This document shows positions 5,622-42,534 of a stretch of DNA of 64,000 nucleotides, piece by piece; position 1 is the stretch's first letter; each line of letters begins with the position of its first letter. This DNA is from Aquilaria yunnanensis (Eukaryota > Streptophyta > Magnoliopsida > Malvales > Thymelaeaceae). The stretch lies in the NCBI GenBank assembly GCA_039654915.1, contig CM077593.1:115499413-115563412 (forward strand), written 5' to 3'. Under the pieces are notes generated by a model, which was not told the DNA's origin, did not search any database, and saw nothing but the letters and a program-made list of their open reading frames with translations. Both the position numbers and the translations under genes were made by a program.

Positions 5622-5711
5622 CGGAGAAACCAAATCCAAATGTATTGTGATTGGTATTGTGTGTGCTAAGGACATCTTTTGCAATACTTAGTGGGAATTG
5701 GGAAGGAAGTG

Positions 5712-19614: not shown

Positions 19615-19845
19615 TACCTTCATTGAGCACATGGTTTCTCAATTAAGCAAATTTTGCTAGGAAGAGATATTCAACCAATAGTAACTATATCTACAATGAA
19701 ATAGACAAAAAAGATTTCAACAACAATGAAATGACTTGTTGTCTCAATTCCATAGAAACAAATATCTCAAATAGTGGTCTCTTATAGGCATATCTCTGTC
19801 TCTCTTTTACACCCTTATATTTTTTTGTTTTATTGCTCAACATCA

Positions 19846-22781
19846 TGTGGCAACGTCGGGTTTTTTGGAGTCGCCACCAATCTGTTTCACCTAGGTCGAT
19901 TGGTCACCTTAAAATTGGTCTGCGAGAGTTCGGGGATCGGGAGTACGGTTATGCTAAAACAACTTTGTTATAGCCCCCAAAATTGGCACCTTAGTTGATT
20001 TTAATTTTGTTTTGCTTTGCTTTTAGAAAATATTCAGTTAATTTTCAAACTAGAAATTTTAACTGAATTAATCGGATGTGGATTTTTAAATTAATTTATA
20101 TAAAATTTGATACTTCCGAACCATGGACTCTGCCGAGTCATTTGGACACGGAAGATTTAATTCCGAACCATGGATTCTGCCGAGTCACCCGGACACGGAA
20201 TTTGATAAAATTTTAAATAAATTAATCCATATCGTAAATATGGATTTTTATCTTTGTATTTATTTAATTTAATTAAAAAGTAGATGTTTTTCAAACCGTA
20301 GATCCTGACGGATCATCCGGATATGGAAATTATTTTTAAAAAGGTGAGCCAAAAAATAATTATTTAATCAAAATTTCATTTATTTAATAATGAAACCAAA
20401 AATTTATGTATATTTCAAAAAAAATAAAAGAAAAGTCTTAATACTTTATTTGATAAAAGGTGAACAAAAAAAATAATTATTTAATCAAAGTTTTATTTAA
20501 TAAAGGAAACAAAAATTGATATGTATATTTCAAAAATAAAAGAAAAGTTTTAATATTTTTATTTGTTTTATTTTGTTTTAATGAAAGATTAACCAAAAGT
20601 AATTATTTAATTAAGAAACCAAAAGTAATTATTTAATTAAGAAACCAAAAATTTATATGCATATTTTAAAAATAAATAAAAGTTTTTTATATTTATATAT
20701 TTTATTTTTTTGTGTTCTTTTTTATTGATAAAATAATTTTCTAATTTATAAGTCTAAAAATACATCTAATTAATAAGTCTAAAATATTTAAAAAAATTTA
20801 ATTCTTTTTTTCTTGTTTATTTTTATTACCTTTATTTGAAATTATTTGGGTAAAATTTTATTTTGTTTAATAAAGGAAACAAAAAGTTATATCTTTTTAT
20901 TATTTTGAAAGAAATAAGTAAAATATTACTGGATAAAAAATAAGTAAAATATTATCCCAAAGTTTTTATTTTTTTTAATAATAAAAGAAAATTTATTTAT
21001 ACACTTTATGTAAAAAAAAATATATTTTATATACTTTATTTAAAAAATATTTTGCAAGCCATGGATCCTGGCGGATCATTTGGACATGGAGTTTAATTAA
21101 TTATTTATTTAATTAATTATTAATTAAATCATAATTTTTATTGGATTTTTATTATTGTTTTTCTTGAATTTTTAATTATTATTACTATAGAAATATATTT
21201 AAAAACAGAATTGATTTTTGTTGTATTTTTAGAATTATTTAATTATGTTTGTTAAATAATTTTTAATAAAAAGAATAAAAAGTTTAACTTTTTGTTCTCT
21301 TTAAAGAAATAATTAAAACATATGTTTCAAAATAATAAAAGATAATTGTCTTTAAAAAAACGATTTTTAAATAGAATAAAGTTAATTATTCACATAAAAG
21401 AATCTTCTTTTAATTAGTTACTGTTTACTTATTTATTTATTTTTTATTATCAAATAAGTAAAATAAATTTTATCATAAAATAAAGTTTTGGCATAAAGGA
21501 AAATTAAATAAAGTAAAGTAAAGGGGAGGTTTTATTTTAGTTTAGACATAAAAAAATGCATAAAATAACACATGTAAACATATAAAGGAATATTAAAAGA
21601 TAATAAATAAATAAATACAGTGGGGCTTTTTGACCATCCACTTAAAAAATAAATAAATATAAGGCATAACCTTCCATGAATTATAAAAGTTAGCAAGAGT
21701 TAGTAAAGTTAGATGTTAATATTAATGACAATAATAATAAAAGTTAGTAAAGTTAGTAAATTAGTAACAATAATAATAATAAAAGGTTAGTAAAGTTAGT
21801 AAGTTAATAACAATAATAGCAATAAAAAAAAAGGTTAGTAAGGTTAGTAAGTTAGTGAGTTAATAACAATTATAACAATAATAAAAGGTTAGTAAGGTTA
21901 GTAAGTTAGTAAGTTAATAACAACAGTAATAAAAGTTAATAATGATAATAATAATAAACAAGTAAAATATAAAAGGAAAGTTAGTAATTAATTCTCTGCA
22001 AGAATAAAATAAAAGGTTAGTGACTCAATAGAAATAAATTGAAAAGATAAAGGGCGAAAGCTGAATTTTACCTAGGAACTAAAATTTCTAATCCTCCAGG
22101 AAACGCGGACGCGCGCGAGGAAAAAAAAAAAAAAACAGTGAGAGAAGGTTTAGGTTTTCTGGAGAGGAAGAGAAGAGGGCCAGGGACCTAGGCTAATTTT
22201 TTTCCTTTTTCTTAAACGGAGCTCTAAGCTTTCTCTCTATTTTTTTCTGTGTTCAGCACAAAATTTGGGGGGGCTATTTATAGAGGAAGTTTGGCTGAAC
22301 TGTTGATGGATAAATTAATAAAAAATTTCAAACTTATCTTTAAAATTGGTAAAATGACAATTTTAGTCCTTTACGTCTCTCAGCCTCTAGATAAGTTCTT
22401 GAAGCTTCTGATTTTGACAATTTTGTCGTTTTCTGTCAATTTGGGCCAGAAACGTCGGCAGGCTCAAAATTTTATGTGACAAACTACCAAATGCTCCTGG
22501 AACTTTTAGAATTTGTCAATTTTTCCCGAAACTTCTCAATTTTGTCATTTTTACCTCAAACTTTAAATTTTTTGTCATTTTTTTCATGAAATTTTATTTT
22601 ATTTCAAACATACACATATTCACATATATATCATTTTAAATCAAATTTTCACAAAACAAAAATATATTTTAAACTAATTAAATTTTTCTAATAATAATAG
22701 TAATATTTTTTTTTAAAATTAATTTTTTTTAATAAAATTTTTTAAAATTTTAAAACACCCGGACGAAATTGGGTGTCAACA
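19846..22781 (-). repeat. 3' LTR of the large retroelement
   Basis: A 2936-bp LTR, bounded by TG...CA in both readings and preceded on the plus strand by CATCA. It is unusually long and AT-rich. It differs from the partner LTR by a small number of substitutions, several clustered in the last 20 bases near 19856-19867, plus one or two short indels. The minus strand holds a TATA box at 22275-22282. A 76-codon plus-strand ORF near 22249 is antisense to the element and was not called. Confidence 0.95.
22275..22282 (-). promoter_or_regulatory. LTR TATA box (3' LTR)
   Basis: TATAAATA on the minus strand, about 500 bp inside the LTR, in the context CTCTATAAATAGCCCCCC. The same box is present in the partner LTR (36192-36199) and in the diverged third LTR (61925-61932), so it is the likely core promoter and marks U3 as about 500 bp. 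Confidence 0.8.
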
Positions 22782-22796
22782 GCTGCCCCCCTTTGC
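22782..22796 (-). promoter_or_regulatory. polypurine tract
   Basis: Minus strand GCAAAGGGGGGCAGC immediately before the TGTTGACACC start of the 3' LTR, the position and composition of a plus-strand primer tract. Confidence 0.85.
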
Positions 22797-22884
22797 ATGC
22801 TTCATGGGACATGATGTATGCAAAGTCGTTACCAAATTTCGTCCGGCTTAGGTAGGCATTGAGAATCTTCTCGCCGCCCAAACA

Positions 22885-24440
22885 GTAAGGTTTAAGGAAA
22901 GGTCCTTAAAACCTCTAACGATAGGAAAGCTCCTATCGTTGTAAGATGGACTGATTGATTGATTATTTGTTTGAGGTTAAGGAAAGGTCCTTAGAACTTC
23001 TAACGATAGGAAAGTTCCTATCGTTGTAAGATGGACTGATGGATTGATTGTTTGTTTGAGGTTAAGGAAAGGTCCTTAGAACCTCTAACGATAGGAAAGC
23101 TCCTATCGTTGTAAGATGGACTGATTGATTGATTATTTGTTTTCGAGGCAAAGGTTCCATCCTTAAAACCTCGGATTGATTGATTGATTTCGAGGCAAAG
23201 GTTCCATCCTTACAACCCCGATGAATGAAAATTGATTGTTTTCGAGACAAAGGTTCCATCCTTAAAACCTCGGATTGATTGATTGATCTTGAGGCAAAGG
23301 TTCCATCCTTAAAACCTCGGATTGATTGATTGATCTCGAGGCAAAGGTTCCATCCTTAAAACCCCGGATTGATTGATTGATGTCGAGGCAAAGGTTCCAT
23401 CCTTAAAACCCCGGATTGATTGATTGATGTCGAGGCAAAGGTTCCATCCTTAAAACCTCGAATTGATTGATTGATGTCGAGGCAAAGGTTCCATCCTTAA
23501 AACCTCGGATTAATAATTGATCTCGGGGCAAAGGTTCCAACCTTAAAACCCCGGATTGATTGATTGATCTCGAGGCAAAGGTTCTATCCTTAAAACCTCG
23601 GATTGATAATTGATCTCGAGGCAAAGGTTCCATCCTTAAAACCCCGGATTGATTGATTGATGTCGAGGCAAAGGTTCCATCCTTAAAACCCCGGATTGAT
23701 TGATTGATGTCGAGGCAAAGGTTCCATCCTTAAAACCTCGAATTGATTGATTGATGTCGAGGCAAAGGTTCCATCCTTAAAACCTCGGATTGATAATTGA
23801 TCTCGAGGCAAAGGTTCCATCCTTAAAACCCCGGATTGATTGATTGATGTCGAGGCAAAGGTTCCATCCTTAAAACCTCGGATTGATAATTGATCTCGAG
23901 GCAAAGGTTCCATCCTTAAAACCCCGGATTGATTGATTGATCTCGAGGCAAAGGTTCTATCCTTAAAACCCCGGATTGATTAATTGATGTCGAGGCAAAG
24001 GTTCCATCCTTAAAACCTCGACGATTGATTGAGTTCGAGGCAAAGGTTCCATCCTTAAAACCTCGGATTGATAATTGATTGTTTTCGAGGCAAAGGTTCC
24101 ATCCTTAAAACCTCAGATTGATAATTGATCTCGAGGCAAAGGTTTCATCCTTAAAACCCCGGATTGATTGATTGATGTCGAGGCAAAGGTTCCATCCTTA
24201 AAACCTCGACGATTGATTGAGTTTGAGGTAAAGGTTCCATCCTTAAAACCTCGGATTGATAATTGATTGTTTACGAGGCAAAGGTTCCATCCTTAAAATC
24301 TCGATGATGAAAATTGATTGTTTTCGAGGCAAAGGTTCCATCCTTAAAACCCCGATGATGAAAATTGGTTCTTTTCGAGGCAAAGATTCCATCCTTAAAA
24401 CCCTGATGATGAAAATTGATTTTGAGGCTAAGGAGCTTTC
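22885..24440. repeat. array of hairpin-forming tandem repeats (87-bp and 47-bp units)
   Basis: The first part (about 22885-23140) has three units of about 87 bp, each with two inverted pairs: GAGGTT/AACCTC enclosing AAGGA/TCCTT, and the perfect stem AACGATAGGA-AAGC-TCCTATCGTT. The second part (about 23141-24440) has about 28 units of about 47 bp. Their core pairs CGAGG with CCTCG and AAGG with CCTT around a short loop, followed by GATTGATTGATTGAT. Some units change both stem sides together (CGGGG with CCCCG at about 23524-23553). The apparent minus-strand ORFs with MEPLPR repeats are a by-product of the unit length and are not called as genes. The array occupies the element's 3' untranslated zone, between LOG and the PPT. 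Confidence 0.9.
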
Positions 24441-24971
24441 CTTAGGACCTCGAGCGAAATTTATATGAAAACAATTGAAATTGGAATAATTTTCTTCGAA
24501 AGTGTGAATTTTCATAATAGGCGAGCGCAAAGAATTAGGCTTCGATAAAACGAGTGAATCTTGACGATGACAATAACACTGACAAATTATGTAAAGGGAA
24601 CGGATGTTTGGAATCAATATTCAAGGTTCATCTAATATTTTCTTCAGTAAATATAGATTCCCTTGTGAGATATGTCATCCGAATAAGGTTAAAGCTTAAC
24701 TACCCCAAAATGTTATGCCTAGTAGACCTAATAGGATGCGTCTCAAGAGTAACAAAAATTACTCTTTACTCAGCCATTCCAACCTAAAGGCATTGCCCTA
24801 TGGTTTTAATATCAGCATGGACGAAACTATCTTATATAGAAAAAAAGAAATTCCCTGAAAAGAAAAACTAAAACACGAAAGAAAATGCTGATAATAAAAC
24901 TAAAGGACAAGAAAAACGGATCAGATCGCTTCTTTCTTCCACAATACTTCAACAGGGTGAGTAGAGGACCA
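24441..24971. other. spacer between the hairpin array and LOG
   Basis: Unique sequence with no supported ORF. On the minus strand it is the likely 3' UTR of LOG. Confidence 0.5.
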
Positions 24972-25601
24972 TTATGGGAGTGAACTGGTCGGGAAAGACT
25001 GTCGTGTCCAGTCTATCTGAATCATTGCTGGATCTGATTCAGGAACAAAAGCTTGTATTTTATCTAGCAATTCTTCAGCAGTTGTTGCGGATATTATAAT
25101 TCGCCGTGCCACTCTTGATATGAAATTCTTCTGCATAGCATAATCCATAAAAGCTATCAGACCTGTAAAGAAATTGTTAACATTCAATAGCCCAATAGAT
25201 TTCTTATGCAAATTAAGTTGGGCCATGGAAGCGATTTGGAAGACTTCTCCTAATGTACCAAAACCGCCGGGTAAAGCGATGAAAGCATCAGCATTTAAAA
25301 GCATTTGTAGCACACGTTCTTGCAGATTTTTGACCACTAGCTCCTCTCCGATCGTGCCCCCAGAAATAAACTTCAAAGGTCCTGGGATAATGCATAGAAC
25401 TTGACTTCCTCCTAAAGATGCTGCTGATGCTACGCCTCCCATTAATCCGACACTACCTCCTCCATAAACTAAATGTATTTTACGCTCAGCTAATACTCTA
25501 CCCAAATGGTTGGCTGCCTTTAAATATTCTTCATCTTTTCCAGGAAAAGCCCCAGAAAATACACAAATACTTCGGGATTTACGAGTTGAGGTTTTCTCCA
25601 T
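24972..25601 (-). CDS. LOG-like: LOG-family cytokinin riboside 5'-monophosphate phosphoribohydrolase, retroelement-borne
   Basis: 209 codons without introns, starting at the Met that begins MEKTSTRKSRSICVFSG (25601). An upstream in-frame Met (25688) lies beyond the TATA box at 25634-25641, so it is unlikely. LOG enzymes cleave cytokinin riboside monophosphates to release the active base. Seen here: the Rossmann-type start SICVFSGAFPG, YGGGSVGLMGGVA at about residues 45-57, and PGGFGTLGE, matching the family's PGGxGTxxE signature. The Arg before the signature is kept (LQERVLQM), although its surroundings differ from the usual plant motif. Length is normal for the family. Plant LOG genes normally have several introns, so the intronless state fits passage through RNA. 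It is the last cassette of the retroelement cargo and shares a promoter box with the zinc-finger genes. Activity is plausible but unproven. Confidence 0.88.
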   Translation of the reverse strand: MEKTSTRKSRSICVFSGAFPGKDEEYLKAANHLGRVLAERKIHLVYGGGSVGLMGGVASAASLGGSQVLCIIPGPLKFISGGTIGEELVVKNLQERVLQMLLNADAFIALPGGFGTLGEVFQIASMAQLNLHKKSIGLLNVNNFFTGLIAFMDYAMQKNFISRVARRIIISATTAEELLDKIQAFVPESDPAMIQIDWTRQSFPTSSLP

Positions 25602-25633
25602 TCCTATCCTTACTCTTGTGAGAAAAGAGGATA

Positions 25634-25641
25634 TATTTATA
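25634..25641 (-). promoter_or_regulatory. TATA box of LOG with shared upstream box
   Basis: Minus strand TTCATCTCTATAAATATA ends about 30 bp before the LOG start codon. The same TTCATC-N-CTATAAAT box precedes the zinc-finger genes at 26903 and 27729, so these cassettes appear to have homologous core promoters. Confidence 0.65.
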
Positions 25642-25689
25642 GAGATGAAGAAAGAAGGCAATAATTTTATTTTCAAGAATGGATACATT

Positions 25690-26225
25690 ATTGCTAGCTA
25701 TTCACAGTAGTCACGAGTATGACTCTGGTCAGGTATGGGTACACTATCGTTAAAAGAGGAGGAAAATTTTCAAAATAGCTGCTAGCATGTACAGTAGTCA
25801 CTACTGTAGCTTACGTCAGGAGTAGGTACGTGATTGTTGAAAGAGAAGGAAAATTTCAAAAGTGGCAGCTATATACAGTAGTCCGTGTCAGGAGTGGGTA
25901 CATTATTGCCAAAGGAGAAGGAAAATTTCAAAAGCAACAGCTAGCATGTACAGTAATCGTGACTTTGGTTCACGTCAGGAGTGGATACATTATTACCAAA
26001 AGGGGAGGAAAATTTCAAAAGCGACGGCTAGCATGTACAGTAATCGTGACTGTTGCTCACGTCAGGAGTGGATACATTATTCTTGGAATAGAAGGAAAAT
26101 TTTCAAAAATGACAACTAGCCTGTACAGTAGTCGTGACTGTGGATCACGTCAGGAGTGGATACATTATTACCAAAAGGGGAGGAAAATTTCAAAAGCGAC
26201 AGCTAGCACGTACAGTAATCGTGAC
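25690..26225. repeat. 87-bp tandem repeat upstream of LOG (about six units)
   Basis: Units run from TACATTATT through GGGGAGGAAAATTTCAAAAG and GCTAGCATGTACAGTAATCG to a GTGACT...TCACGTCAGGAG end. Each full unit carries ACGTCA (TGACGT on the minus strand, a bZIP/TGA-factor core) and a short inverted pair CGTGA/TCACG. Single diverged copies of the same module lie at about 26938-27020 and 27765-27860 upstream of the zinc-finger genes C and B. The array therefore looks like local amplification of a cassette upstream region. Confidence 0.85.
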
Positions 26226-26277
26226 TTTGATCCTCGTCTTCCACTGGCTTTGCGTCCAGTAATGGCTTCAATGCTTT

Positions 26278-26826
26278 CTATGAATCGGTGATTTGCATCT
26301 CATCTAGCTTTCTTACAAACTGGCAAACAGGGTCGTTTAAAGTCAGATTCTTAATATTGTAGCGATCTCGTTCTTTTTGGAAAGTCATCCATAAACCGAC
26401 AATCCCAAATTGCACCATTCCACAAGAGTGCGCTTCAAGAGTCTCTCGAATATTTTCCAGAGATTCCTTACGCAGTCCATTCTTAATGAAACTTCTTCTA
26501 TCTTGACGATTTCTGGTGATCACTCCTGGAGAACGACATTTAGTGCCACAAATCCACCATCCACAATTATGACAAATGCCTAGCCTCTTTGCTCTTCTCT
26601 TTTTGGCATAAGCGCTTTTACCGAAGCCGGACATACGGGTAAAGAATGCTTCTGGAACTTCACCAGCTGAACGAACCTTAGCCTCGATTAGCCATCGCAC
26701 ATTATCAGGAATGCCTTTTTGCATAAATACTCTGAATCGTTCACATCTAGCTTGATAAATCTTTTTAAGAACATTTATTGAAAGGGAAGGAAAATATTTT
26801 CGCAGTGTGGAAAGAGAAGACTCCAT
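26278..26826 (-). CDS. retroelement-borne basic zinc-finger protein, paralogue C (viral NABP-like)
   Basis: 182 codons from the Met aligned with its paralogues (26826); a Met five codons upstream is also in frame. The N-terminus is predicted helical (LRKYFPSL, VLKKIYQARCERF). It is followed by a very basic stretch, GKSAYAKKRRAKRLG, then a C-X2-C-X4-C-X3-C cluster (CHNCGWWICGTKC), then a further basic region and a conserved C-terminal block (LNDPVCQFV). A basic patch directly before a four-cysteine finger is the layout of the small cysteine-rich nucleic-acid-binding proteins of carlavirus-type plant viruses, some of which suppress RNA silencing. The match is by pattern only. It could instead be an unrelated host zinc-finger family. 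It lies upstream of LOG and is followed by the module amplified there. Confidence 0.7.
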   Translation of the reverse strand: MESSLSTLRKYFPSLSINVLKKIYQARCERFRVFMQKGIPDNVRWLIEAKVRSAGEVPEAFFTRMSGFGKSAYAKKRRAKRLGICHNCGWWICGTKCRSPGVITRNRQDRRSFIKNGLRKESLENIRETLEAHSCGMVQFGIVGLWMTFQKERDRYNIKNLTLNDPVCQFVRKLDEMQITDS

Positions 26827-26895
26827 TGATGAAGGAGGCATTTAAGAGAAGAAGAAAGGAATTAGTGATTGTAGGAAACGGAAATAACTTATACG

Positions 26896-26903
26896 TATTT
26901 ATA
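26896..26903 (-). promoter_or_regulatory. TATA box of paralogue C
   Basis: Minus strand TTCATCACTATAAATA, about 70 bp before the start codon, shares its upstream hexamer with the LOG and paralogue B promoters. Confidence 0.6.
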
Positions 26904-27163
26904 GTGATGAAAGGATAACGCGTTAATTACACTTACAGAAGCAAGTACATTATTGTCAAAAGAAAAGACAAATGACAGCTTATATGTACAGCAATCATGA
27001 CTGTGGCTCTCATCTTCCACTGATTTATGTCCAGTAATGGCTTCAATGCCTTCTATAAGTTGGGGATTTGCTTCCCATCCAGTTTTCTTACAAACTGACA
27101 AACAGGGTCGTTTAAAGTCACATTCCCAAGACTGTAACGGTTTCGTTCTTTATGGTAAGTCCT

Positions 27164-27601
27164 TCATAAACCGATAATTTCACCTTGCACTTTTCCACAA
27201 GAATGCGTTTCAAGAGTCTCTCGGATATCTTCCAGAGATTCCTTACGCAGGCCATTCTTAATGAATTTTCTTTTATCTTCACGATTTATGGAGATGTATC
27301 CTAAAGAGCGACATTTAGTATTACAATTCCATCGCCCACATTTATAACACACGCCTAGTCTCTTTGCTCTTCGCCTTTTGGCATAACGGCTTTTACCTAA
27401 ACCGGACATGTGGGGCATAAATGTATCTGGAACTTCACCCGCCAAACGGACCTTAGCTTCAATTATCCACTGCACATTATCGGGAATGCCTTTGCGTGTA
27501 AAAACTCTGATTCTTTCACATCTAGCAAGGTAGATCTTTTTAAGGACTTTTATTGGAAGGGAAGGAAAGTATTTTCGCAGTGCAGAAAGAGTAGAATCCA
27601 T
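27164..27601 (-). CDS. retroelement-borne basic zinc-finger protein, paralogue B (C-terminally truncated)
   Basis: 145 codons aligned from the first residue with paralogues A and C: the same helical N-terminus, the basic stretch GKSRYAKRRRAKRLG and the finger CYKCGRWNCNTKC. It stops after GEIIGL, where A and C continue with Trp; the Trp codon has become TGA. Sequence similar to the paralogues' last 35 or so codons continues downstream with a second stop nearby, so this copy has lost the conserved C-terminal block. The finger and basic patch are intact, so a shortened protein could still bind nucleic acid. Function otherwise as for paralogue C. Confidence 0.65.
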   Translation of the reverse strand: MDSTLSALRKYFPSLPIKVLKKIYLARCERIRVFTRKGIPDNVQWIIEAKVRLAGEVPDTFMPHMSGLGKSRYAKRRRAKRLGVCYKCGRWNCNTKCRSLGYISINREDKRKFIKNGLRKESLEDIRETLETHSCGKVQGEIIGL

Positions 27602-27720
27602 TGATGAGAGAAGAATTTGAGAGAAGAGGGAAATGAATCAGTTATTGTAGGAGACTGGAATAACCGAATTTAGAAGTCACGGGGTATCTTATCCGCTGCT
27701 TAATCAGAAGGAAGAACACG

Positions 27721-27729
27721 CATTTATAG
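27721..27729 (-). promoter_or_regulatory. TATA-like box of paralogue B
   Basis: Minus strand TTCATCACTATAAATG, about 120 bp before the start codon, homologous to the boxes before paralogue C and LOG. Confidence 0.5.
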
Positions 27730-27890
27730 TGATGAAAAGGGATAACGTGTCAATTACACTTAGGGGAGCATGTACATCTGTCAAAAGAAAATGCAAACTT
27801 TTCCAAATATAACAAATTGTATGTACAGTAATTGTGACTGTGGCTCACATCTTCCACTGGTTTTACGTCCAGTAACGGCATTAACGGCTT

Positions 27891-28439
27891 CTATGAGTCG
27901 AGGATTTGCTTCCCATCCAGTTGTTTTACAAGCTGGCAAACAGGGTCATTTACAGCCAGATTCCCGGGACTGTAACGGTTTCGTTCTTCATGAAAAATGC
28001 TCCATAAACCAAGAAGTTCACGTTGCACAGATCCACAAGAATGCGTCTCAAGAGTTAATTGGATATCATCCAACGAGTCCTTACTCAGGCCATTCTTAAT
28101 GAATCGTATTTTATCTTCTCGATTATTAGAGATCATCCCTAAAGAACGACATTTAGTATTACAAGTCCACCGTCCACATTTATGGCAGACTTGTAACCTT
28201 TTCGCTCTTCGCTTTTTGGCATAAGAGCTTTTGCCTATACCAGGCATGTGAGACACAAATGCCTCTGGGATTTCACCTGCCAGACGAACCTTGGCTTCGA
28301 TTAACCACCGCACATCTTCAAGGATTCCTTTGTGCATCAGAACTCTTAATCGTTCACAGTGAACTTGGTAGATCTTTTTGAGAATGTTCATTGGGAGAGA
28401 AGGAAAATATTTTCGTAAGACAGAAAAAGTAGGATCCAT
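27891..28439 (-). CDS. retroelement-borne basic zinc-finger protein, paralogue A (viral NABP-like)
   Basis: 182 codons, the same length as paralogue C. Basic stretch GKSSYAKKRRAKRLQ at residues 69-83; cysteines at 85, 88, 93 and 97 (CHKCGRWTCNTKC); a second basic region at about 107-120; a conserved C-terminal VNDPVCQLV. It is the first cargo gene after gag on the element's sense strand. No intron, signal peptide or membrane segment is visible. Upstream, only a weak TATA-like stretch (AAAATAAAGTA near 28565) is seen, not the clear box of the other cassettes. Homology between A, B and C covers the coding and intergenic parts, so the cassette was tandemly duplicated inside the element and then diverged. 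The viral-type assignment is a motif-level inference. Confidence 0.7.
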   Translation of the reverse strand: MDPTFSVLRKYFPSLPMNILKKIYQVHCERLRVLMHKGILEDVRWLIEAKVRLAGEIPEAFVSHMPGIGKSSYAKKRRAKRLQVCHKCGRWTCNTKCRSLGMISNNREDKIRFIKNGLSKDSLDDIQLTLETHSCGSVQRELLGLWSIFHEERNRYSPGNLAVNDPVCQLVKQLDGKQILDS

Positions 28440-28688
28440 TTTCTAGAGGGAAGTAAAAGAAAGAAGAGAGGAAAGAATCAGTTATTATGGGCAACTGAGA
28501 GAACCGACTTGAGAGTCACGGAGTACCGTATCCGCCGTTTAACCGGAAAAGTGGATCCTACTTTATTTTGATGTGAATGATATTTCTTATCTTTGATATT
28601 CCATCCAGCTGATGTCGATCGAGTCCTTGATTATTGAATCTTTTGTCCGCTTTTGACAAAGTTTCAACGACAATATTTCTTGATGTCT

Positions 28689-28921
28689 GCCTTATCTTTG
28701 ACCACAGCTATCTCTTATCTTGGATGCTGCTAAGCTGGCATCAATCCTGTCCTACCAGGTGTAGCCTCGATTATTGAATCAATTACCAGGCTTTTGACAA
28801 TATTGTCTACTTTATATTTTTTTTTATATCTGCCTTATCCTTGGCTATAGTTATCTCTTATCTTGGATACTACTAGCTGGCATCAATCCTATCCTTCCAG
28901 GTGTAGCCTCGATTATTGAAT
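28689..28921. repeat. tandem duplication, period about 141 bp
   Basis: The block TGCCTTATC...TATCTCTTATCTTGGAT...GGTGTAGCCTCGATTATTGAAT occurs twice (about 28689 and 28830) with about 85-90% identity by eye. Internal part of the retroelement, no ORF. Confidence 0.8.
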
Positions 28922-29154
28922 TGGTAGCCAAGCTTTTGACAATATTGTCTACCTTATCCTTGAATTGCTGATGGGGGTTGGTCCCGCATATTAGCTGTGT
29001 ATCCAGTGATAGATTGGTAAGAGCTGATGTTATTGAGATCTCAGCTTATACTGCTGTAACTGTGCTGTGAATGTGATTCCTGTTTGGTCCTTGTCATGTA
29101 AAAGCTATGCATGCATGATGTGAAATGCATGAATGCACAGCATGCGTAACTGAT

Positions 29155-29187
<33 letters not shown>

Positions 29188-29936
29188 AATCTAGCTCTTT
29201 ATGTCTTTGCTTTACTTTACTGGATCTTCTTTGTGATTTCCTTCTCGGACTATTATTGAATCTCTTTATGCTTTCCAGCTGTTGTCCATTGTCTCAAAAG
29301 CCTAACTCTTTTCAAAAATCTTCTTTCTTTGACTTGTTCTTTGAATTTTGGCCTCAATTTCTTTAAAGTTGGCCCGCCTCATAATTTATATCTCTTTCGG
29401 GTACTCATCCATTGTCATGGATTTGATACCATCAAAGGCTTTACTTTCAATGTCTGCTTTGCCCCTTTTCTTGTGACCGTGCCGACACTTACTTATTCCC
29501 ATGTTATAATCTGAATGATTGCTCTTCCTTGAACTCATGTTTTGATCCATAAGACTTGCCCCCTTGTCTATTGAACTTCTTTATTGGCGGTACTCCTCTT
29601 ACGCTTCGTAGAGACTACTTTGCCCCCCTGAATATGGTGTTTATGTGGAAAGAGATATCATCTCGCCTTTGATTTAACAGAAGGTCGAGCATTTCTAGAC
29701 CTTTGTGATGGCACTTGATCGTAAATTTCTCTTACAAGAACCACATCTTATTAAAGAAAGACTCAAGCTATGTCCTCACTTTTAAGTCTACATACATTAA
29801 TGAATAATGGTTTGGCCTTAAAGAAAAACTTTCATCAATTTGCAAAGCTTGACAAAGTAATTTACGGTCTTTGTTTTTAATTAAAATATCCTGCCATTCT
29901 TCCCTTTCCAACTCGAAGACATAAACTGTGCAAGGC
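28922..29936. other. retroelement internal region, no gene recognised
   Basis: Contains a 31-bp poly-T tract (29156-29186) and several short C-runs of the type CTTGCCCCC and TTTGCCCCCC (about 29556 and 29622), which are PPT-like on the element's sense strand. A 63-codon minus-strand ORF at 29768-29959 has no recognisable domain. This is where pol would be expected, and I find none. Confidence 0.6.
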
Positions 29937-30415
29937 AATAAGGTAGAAACATGATTCACAAGGATAGCCTTTTAGCTGAATGAGGATGATATCGAGAGGT
30001 AAATGTTAGGTGTGAGGAAAGTTAAGTTTGAATGTTTTTTTTTTTTTTTGTGGCAGTCTTTTAGCTGAATGAGAATAATATTAAGAGGTAAATATTAGGT
30101 CTGAGTAAAGTTAAGTTTGAGTGGTGTAAAAGAAGGGTATTTTAATACTACTCGTGAGCAGTATTAAATAAGGTAGAAACATGATTCACAATGATAGTCT
30201 TTTAGCTGAATGAGGATGATAAGTCTGAGGAAAGTTAAATTTAAGTGGTGTGAAAGAATGGTCTTTTAATACTACTCGTGAGCAGTATTAAATAAGGTAG
30301 AAACATGTTTCACAATGATAGTCTTTTAGCTGAATAAGGATGATAAGTCTGAGGAAAGTTAAGTTTAAGTGGTTTGAAAGAAGGGTCTTTTAATGCTACT
30401 CGTGAGCAAATTTGA
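29937..30415. repeat. tandem repeat, period about 115-125 bp, with hairpins
   Basis: Three to four units share AAGGTAGAAACATG, TAGTCTTTTAGCTGAAT and GAGGAAAGTTAAGTTT. Two units contain a strong palindrome, TTTAATACT...AGTATTAAA enclosing CTC-GT-GAG. Confidence 0.8.
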
Positions 30416-30718
30416 TTATGGTGAAAAACTCAATAGTGATGACCTCAAACTTGCCACTCTTTCCAGAAAGTTAAACCTCATCTGTTGCCCCCCAACTATC
30501 GTGGTCTTTATGTATGCTTGGCTTGAGGGTTGCTTTTGTGTTCTAAACCGCCTTTGCAGGTTTTCAGTCTAGAATCCATAGCTCACTTTTTTCTTTTTTT
30601 TTTTCTTTTGCTCTAGTTTGAGCCCTTTTTCCTTTTTTTTTTTGTTTTTTTGTTTTTTTTGTTTTTTTTTGTTTCCCCTTTTTTTTTTTTGTGAGCTATG
30701 GTGATGACATACTTGATA

Positions 30719-31025
30719 ACTCTCTTGAAGTGAGATGACTCAAGTGGCCTTGCTTGCTCGTGCTTGTTCTCAGTCCTTTTTGGTTTTGAATTTTCCCTTG
30801 TTGTCTTTTGATGGAAGGGATGAATTTCTCTTTTCGGAGTTTGTGTTGCCAAAGAACTGAGAACATAGCCTTCTTGAAGTGAAATGATTCAAGTGGCCTT
30901 AGCTGCTTGTGCTTGCTCTCAGTTTTTTTTTTTTTGTTTTGGATTTTCCCTTTAATGGCTTTTGATGGAAGGGAGGAACTTCTTTCCTTTGTTGGAATTT
31001 GTGTTGTGGAAAACTGAGAATTTTT
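30719..31025. repeat. tandem duplication, period about 147 bp, beside T/C-rich tracts
   Basis: A block with TCTTGAAGTGA, TCAAGTGGCCTT, TTTTGATGGAAGGGA and AACTGAGAA occurs twice. Upstream, 30590-30690 is a run of T with scattered C and G. Non-coding internal region of the retroelement. Confidence 0.8.
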
Positions 31026-31249
31026 TTTTTGTATTGAGCATTTGTGAGAATTGTGAGGCCACTGAAGTCATTTAATATGAGAGCTAACTTCTTTGGAAGT
31101 TAATCCCGGACTTCTTGCAAGGATGTTGATAATCACTGTGAATTTTTTTTTTTTAAGAGTTGGGGTGCAACATATGAAATCATTCTTGCTAGATTTAGTA
31201 GTACTTTCCAGATCACCACTATCAAATCTCCCTTAACTTTTTATTTTCA

Positions 31250-31560
31250 CCCACGAGTAGTATCATTTAGAAAGCAAAGTATGATGGCAATAATAGTTAG
31301 TGCAATGGCAAAGATTGAGAGATAGAGGTAAAAATGAAATTTTTGGTAAAAAGTGGTAGAATGTGTAGGTGTAATAATTGAATTAAAAAGTGGTAGAATG
31401 CATACATAACATCTTTTTATTGGAGAACAAAAAGAATTACCGGTTGTCAAAAAGTAAAGTGTGATGACAATAATGGATAGTATAATGGCAAAGAGTGTAA
31501 AAATGGAAAGTAGTAGAATGCACGCATTACATCTTTTTGTTGTACCAGAAAGAATACCAG
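31250..31560. repeat. imperfect duplication, period about 190 bp
   Basis: The blocks AAAGTATGATGGCAATAATAG / AAAGTGTGATGACAATAATGG and the GTGGTAGAATGCATAC...ATCTTTTT parts recur. Internal retroelement sequence without a gene. Confidence 0.65.
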
Positions 31561-31785
31561 GTGTTCATCTAACAAAGACTACACCCTAGATTCTGGACTA
31601 AATCTAGGAGATTTTTACTATTAGATTACTTTTGCAAGCTTTCAAAGATACAAGTTTATTCAAAGGATTCCCTGTCATTCGAAAATGTATGCGGACTGTT
31701 AGGTCAGATCTGACTTGGAGGCCTTCCAAAGTCAATGTAATTCTAGCTCGAAATCTTCACTTTTCAATTATCAATCACATCGGGC

Positions 31786-32706
31786 CTAGCAACTTGGACT
31801 TGGTTTTGCTTGATAAGGCGGCAATGGATTGTGGGTGACATTTGGCTCATCGGAAAAGTCCAACCACTTTGACTCGATTAATTGTTGAACTATACGCTTC
31901 AATGCCATGCAGTTTTCCAAGCCATGGCCTGGAACGCCATCATGATATGGGCAGGTAATGTTAGGGTCATACCACCTTGGATATGGGGGTTTGAATGGCT
32001 TTGTAGGAATTGGACGGATAAATTGTCTTTCGATGAGTTTTGGGTATAACTCAGTATAAGTCATGGAAATTGGTGTGAAAACTTCTCTTGGTCTTGGTGC
32101 AGGTACTGGAGGAGTAGGAGCAGGTGGCCATGACTGATTAGGTCTGTTAAAAGGATAATTGTTGGGCCTATTGGAAGGATAATCATTGGGCCTATTGGAA
32201 GGATAATCATTGGGCCTATTTGGAGGATAATTATTGGGCCTATTCAGAGGATAATCATTGGGCCTATTTGGAAGGTAATTATCGGGCCCATTGGCAAAAT
32301 AGGATAGGCGAGGTCCGATAGCCACAGTATCCACGAGGGGAATCCTTCTTCCGCGTCCTATTTGTTGCACTTCGTCATCTTTTCTTCTGGATGGTCCTCC
32401 TCTTTTCATAGGATTATTAAAGGATTCAGCAATATTCCCAGTCCTAATCTCATGCTCGATTCTTTCTCCAGACATGACAATGTTAGAAAAATTAGTTGCC
32501 GAATTGCCAATGAGTTCGTCATAATATAAGTATTTCAGTGTCTGGACAAACAAAGTGACCATTTCTCTTTCTGTCATGGGTGGCTGAACTTGTGCTTCTT
32601 GAATTGCTTTCGCCTTGATTAGCTCGATCAATTGTCTCATTTGTTCGGCCATACTTTCTATCTTGGACTCTATCTTTATGAGACGTCCTTCGATTTGTTC
32701 TGCCAT
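31786..32706 (-). CDS. gag: Ty3/gypsy gag remnant with internal deletion
   Basis: 306 codons. The N-terminus is a coiled-coil-like stretch (residues about 1-40). Then comes an abrupt step into the middle-to-late gag region beginning VQPPMTEREM and SGERIEHEI. A degenerate seven-residue repeat of NRPN(D/N)YP type follows (about residues 137-190), and a C-terminal CPYHDGVPGHGLENCMALK motif, typical of plant Ty3/gypsy gag next to the protease boundary. Plant gags of this type carry a Retrotrans_gag core of roughly 130 residues between the coiled coil and the PPMTERE-like segment. That core is missing here and the frame is kept, so the deletion is internal. Without the core it probably cannot form particles alone. 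No protease or polymerase follows the stop. Confidence 0.85.
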   Translation of the reverse strand: MAEQIEGRLIKIESKIESMAEQMRQLIELIKAKAIQEAQVQPPMTEREMVTLFVQTLKYLYYDELIGNSATNFSNIVMSGERIEHEIRTGNIAESFNNPMKRGGPSRRKDDEVQQIGRGRRIPLVDTVAIGPRLSYFANGPDNYLPNRPNDYPLNRPNNYPPNRPNDYPSNRPNDYPSNRPNNYPFNRPNQSWPPAPTPPVPAPRPREVFTPISMTYTELYPKLIERQFIRPIPTKPFKPPYPRWYDPNITCPYHDGVPGHGLENCMALKRIVQQLIESKWLDFSDEPNVTHNPLPPYQAKPSPSC

Positions 32707-32824
32707 TAATCTTATTTGGAGCCGAGTTGAATATCGGTGTCGAGGTCCAATTTTATCCTTTTAAAAGTAAGGTATATTTTATTAGATCCTATGTGTATGT
32801 GATTGATGCAATGGATGCATGTAG

Positions 32825-33006
32825 GAAAAATGAGATTATGTTTTTATCAGACTTTGTATGCACGTGATTAATGTAATGGATGTATGCAATGAGATTATGT
32901 TTTTATCAGACTTTATATGCACGTGATTAATGTAATGGATGTATGCAATGAGATTATGTTTTTATCAGACTTTATATGCACGTGATTAATGTAATGGATG
33001 TATGCG
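32825..33006. repeat. 59-bp tandem repeat, three units
   Basis: Units ATGAGATTATGTTTTTATCAG...GTAATGGATGTATGC repeat at 59-bp spacing, almost identical. They lie in the element's leader between PBS and gag. Confidence 0.9.
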
Positions 33007-33739
33007 ATGAGTGAATTTGATTATCCACTATCATGGAACTTCAAGACTTTTAGTTGTTATTAAAAAGACCAAAAAGTTAGCATAGTTTGATTCGTGGTTT
33101 TGATGCATAAAGAATATTTGCACAAAACAGAAGTATAACAAAAGAAAGATAAGTTTATTAATAACTTAAATAGCAATTAACAACTCATGAACTATTATGG
33201 AAAAATGAGTTAAAACCATAAATACGAAAATAAAAGTGTAGAGCAACAACACAGCATAACAATGATATGCTTATGGCGTTGGTAAATGGGAGGAATACTA
33301 TGGTCAGTTCTATGGTTAAGTGGGGAGTTCTATATGCATAAGGTGGCTTATCAAAAAGGCAAGGGATAGTTCCCGAATCCCGTCACTAAATTATAGTAAC
33401 GGCCCGATTCCTTACCCCCTAGGGTTTATGTAAGGAATGGATTAATTCGAGTCGTAGCTTTTCGTGGGCCCATGCAGAGACTAACCGTCTCAGAAGGCAA
33501 TACACTACTTTGCTACTTTGAAACCGGTGAAGGCTTGGAGACCATGGCCTCACAAGGACAACAACACCAATTCCGCTTAGAAAGAATCGTGTTCGATTTA
33601 AGTAAGCTCGGGTATAGAGCTTCATATTGTGAATGCATAATGCATGTTTTCGCTAAGTAAATATAGCATATAAAAATCCACATAATAAGCAAAGTAAATT
33701 AAAACAAATCAACTTTAGGCTCGACTCACTAACGTCGAG

Positions 33740-33757
33740 TCCCCAGCGGAGTCGCCA
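33740..33757 (-). promoter_or_regulatory. primer binding site
   Basis: Minus strand TGGCGACTCCGCTGGGGA begins three bases after the end of the 5' LTR. TGG pairs with the CCA end of a tRNA. A PBS of this kind, reported as tRNA-Arg, is known from Tat/Ogre-lineage elements (from memory). It fixes the element's direction as minus. Confidence 0.85.
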
Positions 33758-33760
33758 AGC

Positions 33761-36698
33761 TGTGGCAACGTCGGAACGTTTCGGAGTCGCCACCAATCTG
33801 TTTCACCTAGGTCGATTGGTCACCTTAAAATTGGTCTGCGAGAGTTCGGGGATCGGGAGTACGGTTACGCTAAAACAACTTTGTTATAGCGCCCAAAATT
33901 GGCACCTTAGTTGATTTTAATTTTGTTTTGCTTTGCTTTTAGAAAATATTCAGTTAATTTTCAAACTAGAAATTTTAACTGAATTAATCGGATGTGGATT
34001 TTTAAATTAATTTATATAAAATTTGATACTTCCGAACCATAGACTCTGCCGAGTCATTTGGACACGGAAGATTTAATTCCGAACCATGGACTCTGCCGAG
34101 TCACCCGGACACGGAATTTGATAAAATTTTAAATAAATTAATCCATATCGTAAATATGGATTTTTATCTTTGTATTTATTTAATTTAATTAAAAAGTAGA
34201 TGTTTTTCAAACCGTAGATCCTGACGGATCATCCGGATATGGAAATTATTTTTAAAAAGGTGAGCCAAAAAATAATTATTTAATCAAAATTTCATTTATT
34301 TAATAATGAAACCAAAAATTTATGTATATTTCAAAAAAAATAAAAGAAAAGTCTTAATACTTTATTTGATAAAAGGTGAACAAAAAAAATAATTATTTAA
34401 TCAAAGTTTTATTTAATAAAGGAAACAAAAATTGATATGTATATTTCAAAAATAAAAGAAAAGTTTTAATATTTTTATTTGTTTTATTTTGTTTTAATGA
34501 AAGATTAACCAAAAGTAATTATTTAATTAAGAAACCAAAAGTAATTATTTAATTAAGAAACCAAAAATTTATATGCATATTTTAAAAATAAATAAAAGTT
34601 TTTTATATTTATATATTTTATTTTTTTGTGTTCTTTTTTATTGATAAAATAATTTTCTAATTTATAAGTCTAAAAATACATCTAATTAATAAGTCTAAAA
34701 TATTTAAAAAAATTTAATTCTTTTTTTCTTGTTTATTTTTATTACCTTTATTTGAAATTATTTGGGTAAAATTTTATTTTGTTTAATAAAGGAAACAAAA
34801 AGTTATATCTTTTTATTATTTTGAAAGAAATAAGTAAAATATTACTGGATAAAAAATAAGTAAAATATTATCCCAAAGTTTTTATTTTTTTTAATAATAA
34901 AAGAAAATTTATTTATACACTTTATGTAAAAAAAAATATATTTTATATACTTTATTTAAAAAATATTTTTCAAGCCATGGATCCTGGCGGATCATTTGGA
35001 CATGGAGTTTAATTAATTAATTATTTAATTAATTATTAATTAAATCATAATTTTTATTGGATTTTTATTATTGTTTTTCTTGAATTTTTAATTATTATTA
35101 CTATAGAAATATATTTAAAAACAGAATTGATTTTTGTTGTATTTTTAGAATTATTTAATTATGTTTGTTAAATAATTTTTAATAAAAAGAATAAAAAGTT
35201 TAACTTTTTGTTCTCTTTAAAGAAATAATTAAAACATATGTTTCAAAATAATAAAAGATAATTGTCTTTAAAAAAACGATTTTTAAATAGAATAAAGTTA
35301 ATTATTCACATAAAAGAATCTTCTTTTAATTAGTTACTGTTTACTTATTTATTTATTTTTTATTATCAAATAAGTAAAATAAATTTTATCATAAAATAAA
35401 GTTTTGGCATAAAGGAAAATTAAATAAAGTAAAGTAAAGGGGAGGTTTTATTTTAGTTTAGACATAAAAAAATGCATAAAATAACACATGTAAACATATA
35501 AAGGAATATTAAAAGATAATAAATAAATAAATACAGTGGGGCTTTTTGACCATCCACTTAAAAAATAAATAAATATAAGGCATAACCTTCCATGAATTAT
35601 AAAAGTTAGCAAGAGTTAGTAAAGTTAGATGTTAATATTAATGACAATAATAATAAAAGTTAGTAAAGTTAGTAAATTAGTAACAATAATAATAATAAAA
35701 GGTTAGTAAAGTTAGTAAGTTAATAACAATAATAGCAATAAAAAAAAAGGTTAGTAAGGTTAGTAAGTTAGTGAGTTAATAACAATTATAACAATAATAA
35801 AAGGTTAGTAAGGTTAGTAAGTTAGTAAGTTAATAACAACAGTAATAAAAGTTAATAATGATAATAATAATAAACAAGTAAAATATAAAAGGAAAGTTAG
35901 TAATTAATTCTCTGCAAGAATAAAATAAAAGGTTAGTGACTCAATAGAAATAAATTGAAAAGATGAAGGGCGAAAGCTGAATTTTACCTAGGAACTAAAA
36001 TTTCTAATCCTCTAGGAAACGCGGACGCGCGCGAGGAAAAAAAAAAAAAAAACAGTGAGAGAAGGTTTAGGTTTTCTGGAGAGGAAGAGAAGAGGGCCAG
36101 GGACCTAGGCTAATTTTTTTCCTTTTTCTTAAACGGAGCTCTAAGCTTTCTCTCTATTTTTTTCTGTGTTCAGCACAAAATTTGGGGGGGCTATTTATAG
36201 AGAAAGTTTGGCTGAACTGTTGATGGATAAATTAATAAAAAATTTCAAACTTATCTTTAAAATTGGTAAAATGACAATTTTAGTCCTTTACGTCTCTCAG
36301 CCTCTAGATAAGTTCCTGAAGCTTCTGATTTTGACAATTTTATCGTTTTCTGTCAATTTGTGCCAGAAACGTCGGCAGGCTCAAAATTTTATGTGACAAA
36401 CTACCAAATGCTCCTGGAACTTTTAGAATTTGTCAATTTTTCCCGAAACTTCTCAATTTTGTCATTTTTACCTCAAACTTTAAATTTTTTGTCATTTTTT
36501 TCATGAAATTTTATTTTATTTCAAACATACACATATTCACATATATATCATTTTAAATCAAATTTTCACAAAACAAAAATATATTTTAAACTAATTAAAT
36601 TTTTCTAATAATAATAGTAATATTTTTTTTTTAAATTAATTTTTTTTAATAAAATTTTTTAAAATTTTAAAACACCCGGACGAAATTGGGTGTCAACA
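33761..36698 (-). repeat. 5' LTR of the large retroelement
   Basis: 2938 bp, followed on the plus strand by the target duplication CATCA. Its TATA box lies on the minus strand at 36192-36199. Nearly identical to 19846-22781. Confidence 0.95.
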
Positions 36699-36703
36699 CA
36701 TCA

Positions 36704-37041: not shown

Positions 37042-37593
37042 CTAGTTGCTGGGAACATGCTTGAGCTTGATCTCCTTCTTCTTACTAGAAATCTTGCCAC
37101 TCCCATCAATAGGTATCTTGCCGCTCACGTGAATTGGATGGTGCTTGCTCTCGATGCCCCATGTCTTGTACTTCACCCTGGTCTGCACATCAACCTTTAC
37201 TTCAGCCTTCCCGCTGCGCATCGCGTTGCGAACATTTCTCCAGCCACCACCACTTACATCCACATAATCATCATACGACTGCGTGCTGCTCTTCTTCTGG
37301 CGGAAACCAGACTTGTTTCTTGTCCCGATTAGTTCGTTTTCACCGTCGAAAAAGCCGACCATGACTGGGTCGTAGTAGATTCCGGAATCTGTGTTTGGGT
37401 TCTTAAATTGTAGTTCGTAGCTGACTTTGCCACCGCCGGAATCATCACTGCGATTTAACGGAGGGACGGAGAAATCTATTATTGCAAGGCTGGGGCTTCT
37501 GGGACGCAAAGCTAGAAACAGGCACAAGGCGAGTAAGCCCAGGAGCCCAACAACTTGGAGAAGCCAGATGGAGAAGCGACCGGTGTCGCACAT
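37042..37593 (-). CDS. NDR1/HIN1-like (LEA14/LEA_2) membrane protein
   Basis: 183 codons in one exon. Residues about 8-29 form a transmembrane helix (WLLQVVGLLGLLALCLFLAL). It is followed by the family hallmark LRPRSP, then a LEA_2-type beta-sandwich domain with IIDFSVPPLN, YELQFKNPN and a C-terminal KYKTWGIESKHHP block. NHL proteins are type II plasma-membrane proteins related to NDR1 and HIN1, several of them induced in defence. The cytosolic N-terminus is very short (about seven residues). A related gene lies 4.3 kb away on the same strand, so this may be a small cluster. Specific function is not inferable. Confidence 0.85.
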   Translation of the reverse strand: MCDTGRFSIWLLQVVGLLGLLALCLFLALRPRSPSLAIIDFSVPPLNRSDDSGGGKVSYELQFKNPNTDSGIYYDPVMVGFFDGENELIGTRNKSGFRQKKSSTQSYDDYVDVSGGGWRNVRNAMRSGKAEVKVDVQTRVKYKTWGIESKHHPIHVSGKIPIDGSGKISSKKKEIKLKHVPSN

Positions 37594-41856: not shown

Positions 41857-42534
41857 TCAGGAGAAATAAACAGGACACCGCTTCTCTCGAAAGCCCGCCA
41901 GAATCGTCCCGTCGGGGCCAACCGGAACGTCACAGTTGGCATACATCTTATGGTGCTTGCTCTCCCACTGGAACACCTTGAATCGGATCGTCGATGATAT
42001 TTCCAGCCGGAAAGGCACCGAACCCCTCTGCCGGTCGTTCAGGAACTCCGACCACCGCGCGCTGTTCACCGTCAAAGTCGCCCCGCTCAGCGTTTCCGTG
42101 AAAACCTTAGTCGTTTTCGGCTCCTGGTTGAACTGGTCGGCCAAGGGCGTCGTCCCTATCTGCTGGTCCTTGTAATAAACGGTGGCATTAACGGACTCGT
42201 AGAAAATGATAATTTTCTGGTTGGGATTGCGGTCGGTGACGTTGAATGTGATCTGGGCGTTCTCGAAGCCGGCAGGTTGGGCGAGTCCTTGGACGGAGAA
42301 GTCGTGGATGTGGAAGCGGGGACGGTGGGGGCGGAGGCTGAGCCAGAAGATGAAGGCGATGAGGCCGAAGAGGAAGAGAAGAGACAGGAAAATGGAGCAG
42401 ACTACTTTGGATACGCGGGTGGTGAGGCTCTCCTTGACGCGGTGGGCGTAGTAGCCGGTGCGCGTGTGCTGGCGGTTGACTGCTTTGGTCTCGTCATTGC
42501 TGTAGTAGATGGGTAAGCGGGCGGGGGTCGACAT
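41857..42534 (-). CDS. NDR1/HIN1-like (LEA14/LEA_2) membrane protein
   Basis: 225 codons in one exon. The cytosolic N-terminus of about 40 residues is basic (NRQHTRTGYYAHRVKESLTT). A transmembrane helix lies at about residues 45-67 (CSIFLSLLFLFGLIAFIFWL), followed by the family hallmark SLRPHRPRFHIHDFSV. The extracytosolic LEA_2 domain has ITFNVTDRNPN, a possible N-glycosylation site in FNVT, and ends with VFQWESKHHKMYANCDV and two cysteines. Full length for the family; plasma-membrane, type II. It is more complete at the N-terminus than the gene at 37042-37593. Coding sequence is GC-rich against its surroundings, normal for an intronless plant gene. A defence role is known for some members but not shown here. 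Confidence 0.9.
   Translation of the reverse strand: MSTPARLPIYYSNDETKAVNRQHTRTGYYAHRVKESLTTRVSKVVCSIFLSLLFLFGLIAFIFWLSLRPHRPRFHIHDFSVQGLAQPAGFENAQITFNVTDRNPNQKIIIFYESVNATVYYKDQQIGTTPLADQFNQEPKTTKVFTETLSGATLTVNSARWSEFLNDRQRGSVPFRLEISSTIRFKVFQWESKHHKMYANCDVPVGPDGTILAGFREKRCPVYFS

Follow-up and report, generated by a model that had tools for sequence, protein, structure and literature searches.

A pol-less LTR retrotransposon of Aquilaria yunnanensis and its pol-bearing sisters share a module of LOG-family and viral-type zinc-finger genes

What is a long terminal repeat (LTR) retrotransposon without a pol gene doing with four other genes? The question is raised by a stretch of 64,000 nucleotides of the Aquilaria yunnanensis genome (GCA_039654915.1, contig CM077593.1, positions 115,499,413 to 115,563,412; hereafter the window, in whose numbering features are given). 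On its minus strand, at 19846-36698, lies an LTR retrotransposon that has a gag remnant, no pol and cargo open reading frames (ORFs) in sense: one for an enzyme of the LOG (LONELY GUY) family and three for zinc-finger proteins (ZF1, ZF2 and ZF3). An earlier note, made from the sequence alone, proposed that this cargo stands in place of pol. We find the same cassette in pol-bearing sister copies, and the window copy is therefore best read as a pol-less derivative, which would have lost pol and part of gag and kept the module.

Anatomy of the element and its pol-bearing sisters

The window copy is confirmed as an LTR retrotransposon with cargo genes. Paired-LTR comparison delimits a 5' LTR at 33761-36698 and a 3' LTR at 19846-22781 (element orientation, both on the minus strand), which are 2.94 kb long, have TG..CA ends and are 99.35% identical (17 mismatches among 2936 compared bases, plus two gap columns). 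Their divergence (Kimura two-parameter, K2P, 0.0058), read with substitution rates of 1.3e-8 to 7e-9, would place the insertion about 0.2-0.4 million years ago. Copies of the target-site duplication CATCA flank the element at 19841-19845 (left) and 36699-36703 (right). A polypurine tract (22782-22797, minus strand) adjoins the 3' LTR, and a stretch resembling a primer-binding site (33740-33757, minus strand) adjoins the 5' LTR; the latter may resemble the tRNA-Arg site of Ogre elements.

Along the element, this stretch is followed by the gag remnant, a stretch of roughly 3.3 kb in which no ORF of 90 amino acids (aa) or more is listed, ZF3, ZF2, ZF1, LOG, a tandem array, the polypurine tract and the 3' LTR. 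The gag remnant (31786-32706, minus strand, 306 aa) has lost its capsid part, which in a pol-bearing copy is the part matching PF03732. The repeat listing resolves the array between LOG and the 3' LTR (22892-24460, minus strand) into 85-bp units followed by units of about 47 bp, and places a second set of tandem repeats, about 87 bp each, in the LOG-ZF1 interval (25676-26226, minus strand). The array at 22892-24460 is a possible source of satellite DNA. The earlier note had already recognised the element, its strand, duplication and priming sites, its near-identical 2.9-kb LTRs and its gag remnant, and the analysis bears it out on each.

The genome searched is an 842-Mb eudicot assembly in 345 contigs, of which at least eight measure 86-120 Mb. 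On C4, at position 86.81 Mb, two LTRs that are identical across the 2255 bp compared lie 19.7 kb apart and enclose an ORF of 1103 aa in which Retrotrans_gag and G-patch domains are matched, a 503-aa ORF with reverse transcriptase (RT) and RNase H, and a complete cassette. The cassette is sense-oriented, has the gene order of the window and encodes a LOG of 209 aa and three zinc fingers of 182 aa each (ZF1 counted from its ATG). The claim that cargo took the place of pol thus stands for the window copy, which has no pol, and falls for the family; we rejected it as a description of the element because the pol-bearing copy combines gag and RT-RNase H with that very cassette. As a side observation, the G-patch domain lies in the gag ORF of this sister at L079:3438-6746; the main text of PMC9289625 describes this domain in some plant Gypsy elements and in type D retroviruses.

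With the RT of this copy as query, 85 pol matches were scored of 31794 candidates. Seventy-three of the 85 lie within a frame of 1144 aa, and two contain a stop. The pol of another sister (L081, 1132 aa, intact) carries RVT_1, RNase H, RVT_3, Integrase_H2C2 and rve, which is the Tat-type order of RT, RNase H, second RNase H and integrase. Judged by this domain order, seen in the sister and not in the pol-less window copy itself, the family would belong to the Tat-type Ty3/gypsy elements. At least eight of the 85 pol matches have a listed cargo gene downstream on the same strand (matched by eye), namely a zinc finger in five cases at 3.2-3.5 kb, one of them with an internal stop, and LOG in three cases at 6.7-7.0 kb; this count is a floor, as the zinc-finger and LOG lists cover a small part of the candidates. 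Two pol matches, at C4:85865250 and C4:95134550, fall within much longer frames (2255 and 2263 aa), so that some copies may have gag fused to pol.

The cargo genes, their copies and the selection on them

The LOG ORF of the window (24972-25688, minus strand) is uninterrupted and 238 aa long, and ZF1 (26278-26841, minus strand) spans 187 aa. Both probably start at an inner ATG (MEKTS.. and MESS.., giving 209 and 182 aa), because other copies show that ATG. ZF3 (27891-28439, minus strand) has the full 182 aa and a C-x2-C-x4-C-x3-C motif, while ZF2 (27164-27601, minus strand) has 145 aa and, judged by its ORF, Pfam match and sister loci, has lost the C-terminus of its 182-aa relatives. The four intact or nearly intact sense ORFs of the earlier note are therefore three (LOG, ZF1 and ZF3) and one that is cut short.

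The assignment of the LOG protein as a full-length family member holds: it scores 97.9 bits against PF03641 (cut-off 27), and its best PDB match is 2a33 (At2g37210, E 1.2e-49). Its Lysine_decarbox domain has the PGGxGTxxE motif and the conserved arginine; in an alignment of 120 listed relatives with the window LOG, the glutamate of the motif is kept in 98% and the arginine in 97% of ungapped rows. The second glutamate is altered in PDB 5zbk relative to 5zbj. The zinc fingers combine a basic stretch with a C4 motif, and all three score above the curated cut-off of PF01623 (Carla_C4) and also above that of PF05515 (Viral_NABP), in matches of about 30-70 residues with E values of about 1e-6 to 6e-5. 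Their four cysteines are kept in 95-99% of 122-123 alignment rows. Their description as three paralogous, basic zinc fingers of viral aspect is thus supported.

Our hit lists hold the best-scoring matches only; they are biased to intact copies and give no measure of copy number. On this footing, 149 of 150 scored LOG matches (the best 150 of 3994 first-look candidates, 97-100% identical) are stop-free, as are 146 of 150 matches to ZF3 (best 150 of 8228) and 147 of 150 to a Populus LOG (best 150 of 3609). A piece of the LTR gave 40 near-full matches, scored of 4671 candidates, which group into 14 pairs with a spacing of 12.9-15.0 kb, the window pair among them, and two wider pairs with spacings of 19.7 and 25.9 kb. 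Extrapolating from the candidate counts, we would guess that the family numbers thousands of copies. A less biased sample is obtained when one gene is inspected in loci chosen by another: of 29 other LOG-chosen loci, 22 have a full-length ZF1, and of 29 other ZF3-chosen loci, 23 have a full-length zinc finger (182 aa) adjoining ZF3. One of the latter loci (L061) has two zinc fingers only. The cassette is found again in distinct insertions across several chromosomes, which excludes chance. A second LTR pair of window-like length (C7, 34.55 Mb) shows one difference in 2255 LTR bases; short copies therefore move, or moved, recently. Some copies are close neighbours about 14 kb apart (L019 and L020 at C8:17.957 and 17.971 Mb; L058 and L059 at C2:9.367 and 9.381 Mb), and seven LOG matches cluster at C4:82.39-82.76 Mb, hinting at tandem arrays of the element.

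For the zinc fingers and their controls, selection was gauged by pooled Nei-Gojobori ratios of nonsynonymous to synonymous differences (pN/pS) with bootstrap, from full-length copies only, which favours low values. ZF1 in LOG-chosen loci gave 0.32 (95% bootstrap range 0.21-0.52; 20 unique sequences) and the zinc finger adjoining ZF3 in ZF3-chosen loci 0.39 (0.28-0.53; 17 unique), compared with 0.71, 0.87 and 0.50 for spacer read as codons (lower bounds 0.43, 0.54 and 0.33) and 0.52 and 1.42 for ZF1 read out of frame. Between paralogous zinc fingers within copies, dN/dS ranges from 0.16 to 0.43 across nine pairs. For LOG, we compared copies that had not been chosen by LOG: the window differs from L080 in 27 silent-only and five amino-acid-changing codons of 210, and from L061 in 28 and five of 185 (binomial p <1e-9 for both pairs against a neutral share of 0.69, derived from the controls). 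The pair L080 and L061 says little (12 differing codons, seven silent and five changing, p 0.046), and a pN/pS of 0.11 from LOG-chosen loci (25 unique sequences) was not used as evidence. LOG changes are thus mostly silent, and the cargo appears constrained. According to the earlier note, cargo confined to one insertion, or present elsewhere only as stop-riddled, neutrally evolving copies, would speak for accidental capture; the search for the same LTR and cargo found instead many copies in this genome, mostly intact among those examined and constrained, and relatives in several plant families.

Relatives in plants and viruses, and earlier reports

Outside this genome, 7356 of 7998 scored proteins match the LOG at E<=1e-10. 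The best 120, which were listed, include proteins of Reevesia, Paulownia, Populus, Parasponia and Xanthoceras and are mostly 54-62% identical; one reaches 90%, and some host-type or fused gene models lie at 44-56%. For the zinc finger, 256 proteins match at E<=0.001, with 120 listed, including Populus, Xanthoceras and Orobanche; these are 53-72% identical, save one at 94%, and PF01623 is a precomputed annotation on listed relatives. Contigs of 8723, 4511 and 2128 bases are common to both lists, which suggests that LOG and zinc fingers are linked in other plants too, while a few shorter coincidences may be due to chance. PF01623 was matched in none of 14 control genomes, and neither a viral-contig scan with the zinc finger nor a prokaryote genome scan with the LOG found a relative.

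In a tree of 33 LOG sequences, which includes three host LOGs and one bacterial LOG only, the window LOG and 28 listed relatives stand apart from the host LOGs (support 98/84); on this limited set a single capture is likely. Element LOGs share the domain family, PGGxGTxxE and the conserved arginine with plant LONELY GUY enzymes (PDB 2a33 and 1ydh) and differ from them in being element-encoded, in one ORF and in a separate clade. Unlike the plant enzymes, most listed relatives also end in a tail that resembles the EAR repression motif, defined as LxLxL or DLNxxP in the accessible text of PMC6283911. LxLxL occurs within the last eight residues of 99 of the 120 listed relatives (among P0006-P0120), and all 99 have at least two Lys/Arg in the six residues before it; typical tails read KKRKLDLTLRL or KLRLDLSLSL. 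Many of these rows represent copies within a small number of plants and are not independent. The same test is positive in two of 120 zinc-finger relatives and none of 120 LEA_2 proteins, and the host LOGs viewed have no such tail (2a33/At2g37210 to residue 213 of 215, 1ydh/At5g11950 to residue 209 of 216, and Thalictrum P0002 at full length). LxLxL is absent from the end of the window LOG and from the LOG ends of L019, L023, L037 and L080, and three frames behind the window LOG stop hold no convincing trace of it. We regard the tail as a new observation: no literature on it in such elements was found, judged by the titles listed, and we know of no report of it on element LOGs.

A LOG in plant Gypsy elements was already known. 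The main text of PMC9289625 describes YgdH (LOG) domains in Gypsy consensuses of Citrus sinensis and Citrus clementina and, with a laxer filter, of Populus trichocarpa, and credits the observation to Steinbauerova 2011; like the window family, these are plant Ty3/gypsy elements with a LOG-family domain inside. That text names no carla-type zinc fingers, tail or selection test, whereas all three are considered here, and its screen used RT as marker, which puts pol-less copies such as the window's outside it. No word beginning carla or NABP occurs in that main text, and none beginning carla or lysine decarbox occurs in the accessible text of PMC11963269 and PMC7264820. No literature was found that joins carlavirus-type zinc fingers to retrotransposons, in a search with thin coverage of subscription papers. 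Of the combination that was unfamiliar to the earlier note, a hormone enzyme together with a viral-type triplet, the LOG part is therefore known already.

Two other groups of elements are comparable. Phalaenopsis Ogre-type Tat elements with an AlkB RNA demethylase (PMC9289625, main text) are likewise Gypsy elements; they too have long LTRs, two RNase H domains and an additional enzyme that could plausibly counter host control. They differ in the enzyme, in having gag and pol in one ORF and in having been assayed in vitro. Ogre elements are said there to have a primer-binding site complementary to tRNA-Arg. Retand elements with TRP28, as far as the accessible text of PMC11963269 describes them, also have a long region between pol and the 3' LTR, tandem repeats and extra ORFs thought to be nucleic-acid-binding. 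Their TRP28 ORFs are antisense, whereas several genes lie in sense here, with LOG and Viral_NABP matches, and we rejected membership in that group on orientation and Pfam family.

On the viral side, cysteine-rich proteins of carla-, allexi- and mandariviruses (PF01623, PF05515; PMC12172455, accessible text) have a basic stretch followed by a C4 finger, as here. The element proteins are unlike them in their length of 182 aa, of which the N- and C-terminal portions lie beyond the match, in their tandem multiplication and in their residence in a retrotransposon. The same source describes the carlavirus proteins as silencing suppressors and pathogenicity determinants, and p12 of chrysanthemum virus B as a transcription factor that causes hyperplasia.

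What the module may do

The cargo genes look maintained intact by selection, which suggests that the element manipulates its host cell. The account that we favour, and to which we give about even chances, is that a young, high-copy Tat-type family carries an old accessory module acting on the cell that expresses the element, the window copy being a pol-less derivative that is presumably mobilised in trans by pol-bearing sisters. The module lies in sense downstream of pol, before the 3' LTR, and comprises LOG and two or three tandem zinc fingers, which are taken as kin of cysteine-rich proteins that bind nucleic acids in carla- and allexiviruses. LOG would free active cytokinin from its nucleotide form and keep the cell dividing. 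Because of what is described for carlavirus proteins and p12, the zinc fingers would be expected to act on nucleic acids in the nucleus, as silencing suppressors or transcription factors. In the relatives from other plants, the basic LxLxL tail of LOG would also recruit the corepressor TOPLESS, which pathogen effectors are described as binding (PMC7446885 and PMC8126959). These hormonal, nucleic-acid and silencing functions are what we infer from sequence, and the convergence of the two arms, both of which would favour a proliferating, less silenced cell, is attractive; the element would profit through higher transcription and a larger number of inheritable insertions.

Several observations weigh against this account. 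No integrase ORF of at least 80 aa is listed in two stretches of the pol-bearing C4 copy, and ZF1 is broken in seven of the 29 other LOG-chosen copies. The viral models are covered only at positions 24-67 of 91 (Carla_C4) and 138-207 of 227 (Viral_NABP), so that homology extends to the basic and zinc-finger part and not to the whole protein. The zinc-finger pN/pS values lie below every control, some narrowly and with partly overlapping bootstrap ranges, and thus appear lowered, not dramatically. The window LOG has glycine at the first glutamate of the LEE pair, has no tail and shares a long branch with its nearest relative in the tree; its activity could have changed.

A module that serves the element's own replication is a less probable but substantial competitor. 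The fingers would then be nucleic-acid chaperones or act in RNA export or packaging, as their basic stretch and C4 motif would permit, and the gag ORF of the pol-bearing copy, for which Pfam gives no CCHC match at E 0.01, leaves a place for a separate nucleic-acid-binding protein; LOG would act on purine pools or a nucleotide signal and not on a host hormone. LOG enzymes are known for cytokinin nucleotides, however, we know of no replication need for one, and the EAR-like tail of the relatives points to the nucleus and transcription. That tail, found in 99 relatives and not on the host LOGs viewed, could also mean that LOG has turned into a nuclear adaptor, its fold binding a nucleotide ligand and its tail recruiting TOPLESS, with enzyme activity secondary and the window subfamily a decaying version. 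We consider this improbable: an adaptor has no need of the catalytic arginine and glutamate that nearly all rows keep, the LOG ends examined in this genome have no tail, and the tailed rows are not independent.

Gene capture by LTR elements is common, and the truncated ZF2 and missing pol of the window copy would suit captured passengers that spread neutrally with an active element. We rejected this explanation, which retains very little probability, on the recurrence of the cargo and on the silent against changing LOG codons (27 to 5 and 28 to 5); relatives of both gene types in several plant families and an intact cassette in a young pol-bearing copy oppose it too. A separate doubt concerns only the origin of the fingers and is compatible with any of these explanations: a basic patch and a short C4 finger may have arisen twice, as the short matches and modest E values would allow. 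Independent origin is a serious possibility, if not the one we prefer, given that two viral models exceed their curated cut-offs in all three paralogues and that PF01623 is precomputed for listed relatives.

The favoured account has a wider form, in which a widespread lineage practises a virus-like takeover of its host with a cytokinin enzyme, multiplied viral-type fingers and, in most listed relatives, a TOPLESS-drawing tail; we advance it tentatively and with more doubt than confidence. Silencing is generally regarded as the main ground on which transposable elements and their host meet. If the wider form is true, some plant retrotransposons would manipulate development or defence in the manner of pathogens. 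It would also bear on the origin of viral cysteine-rich proteins, whose finger would be common to plant retrotransposons and RNA viruses.

Elsewhere in the window, two LEA_2 (NDR1/HIN1-like) genes adjoin the element on the minus strand (37042-37593 and 41857-42534), one of which reaches at most 66% identity, to Tripterygium, among the matches listed, and an ORF with a Stress-antifung domain (PF01657) lies at 5199-5684.

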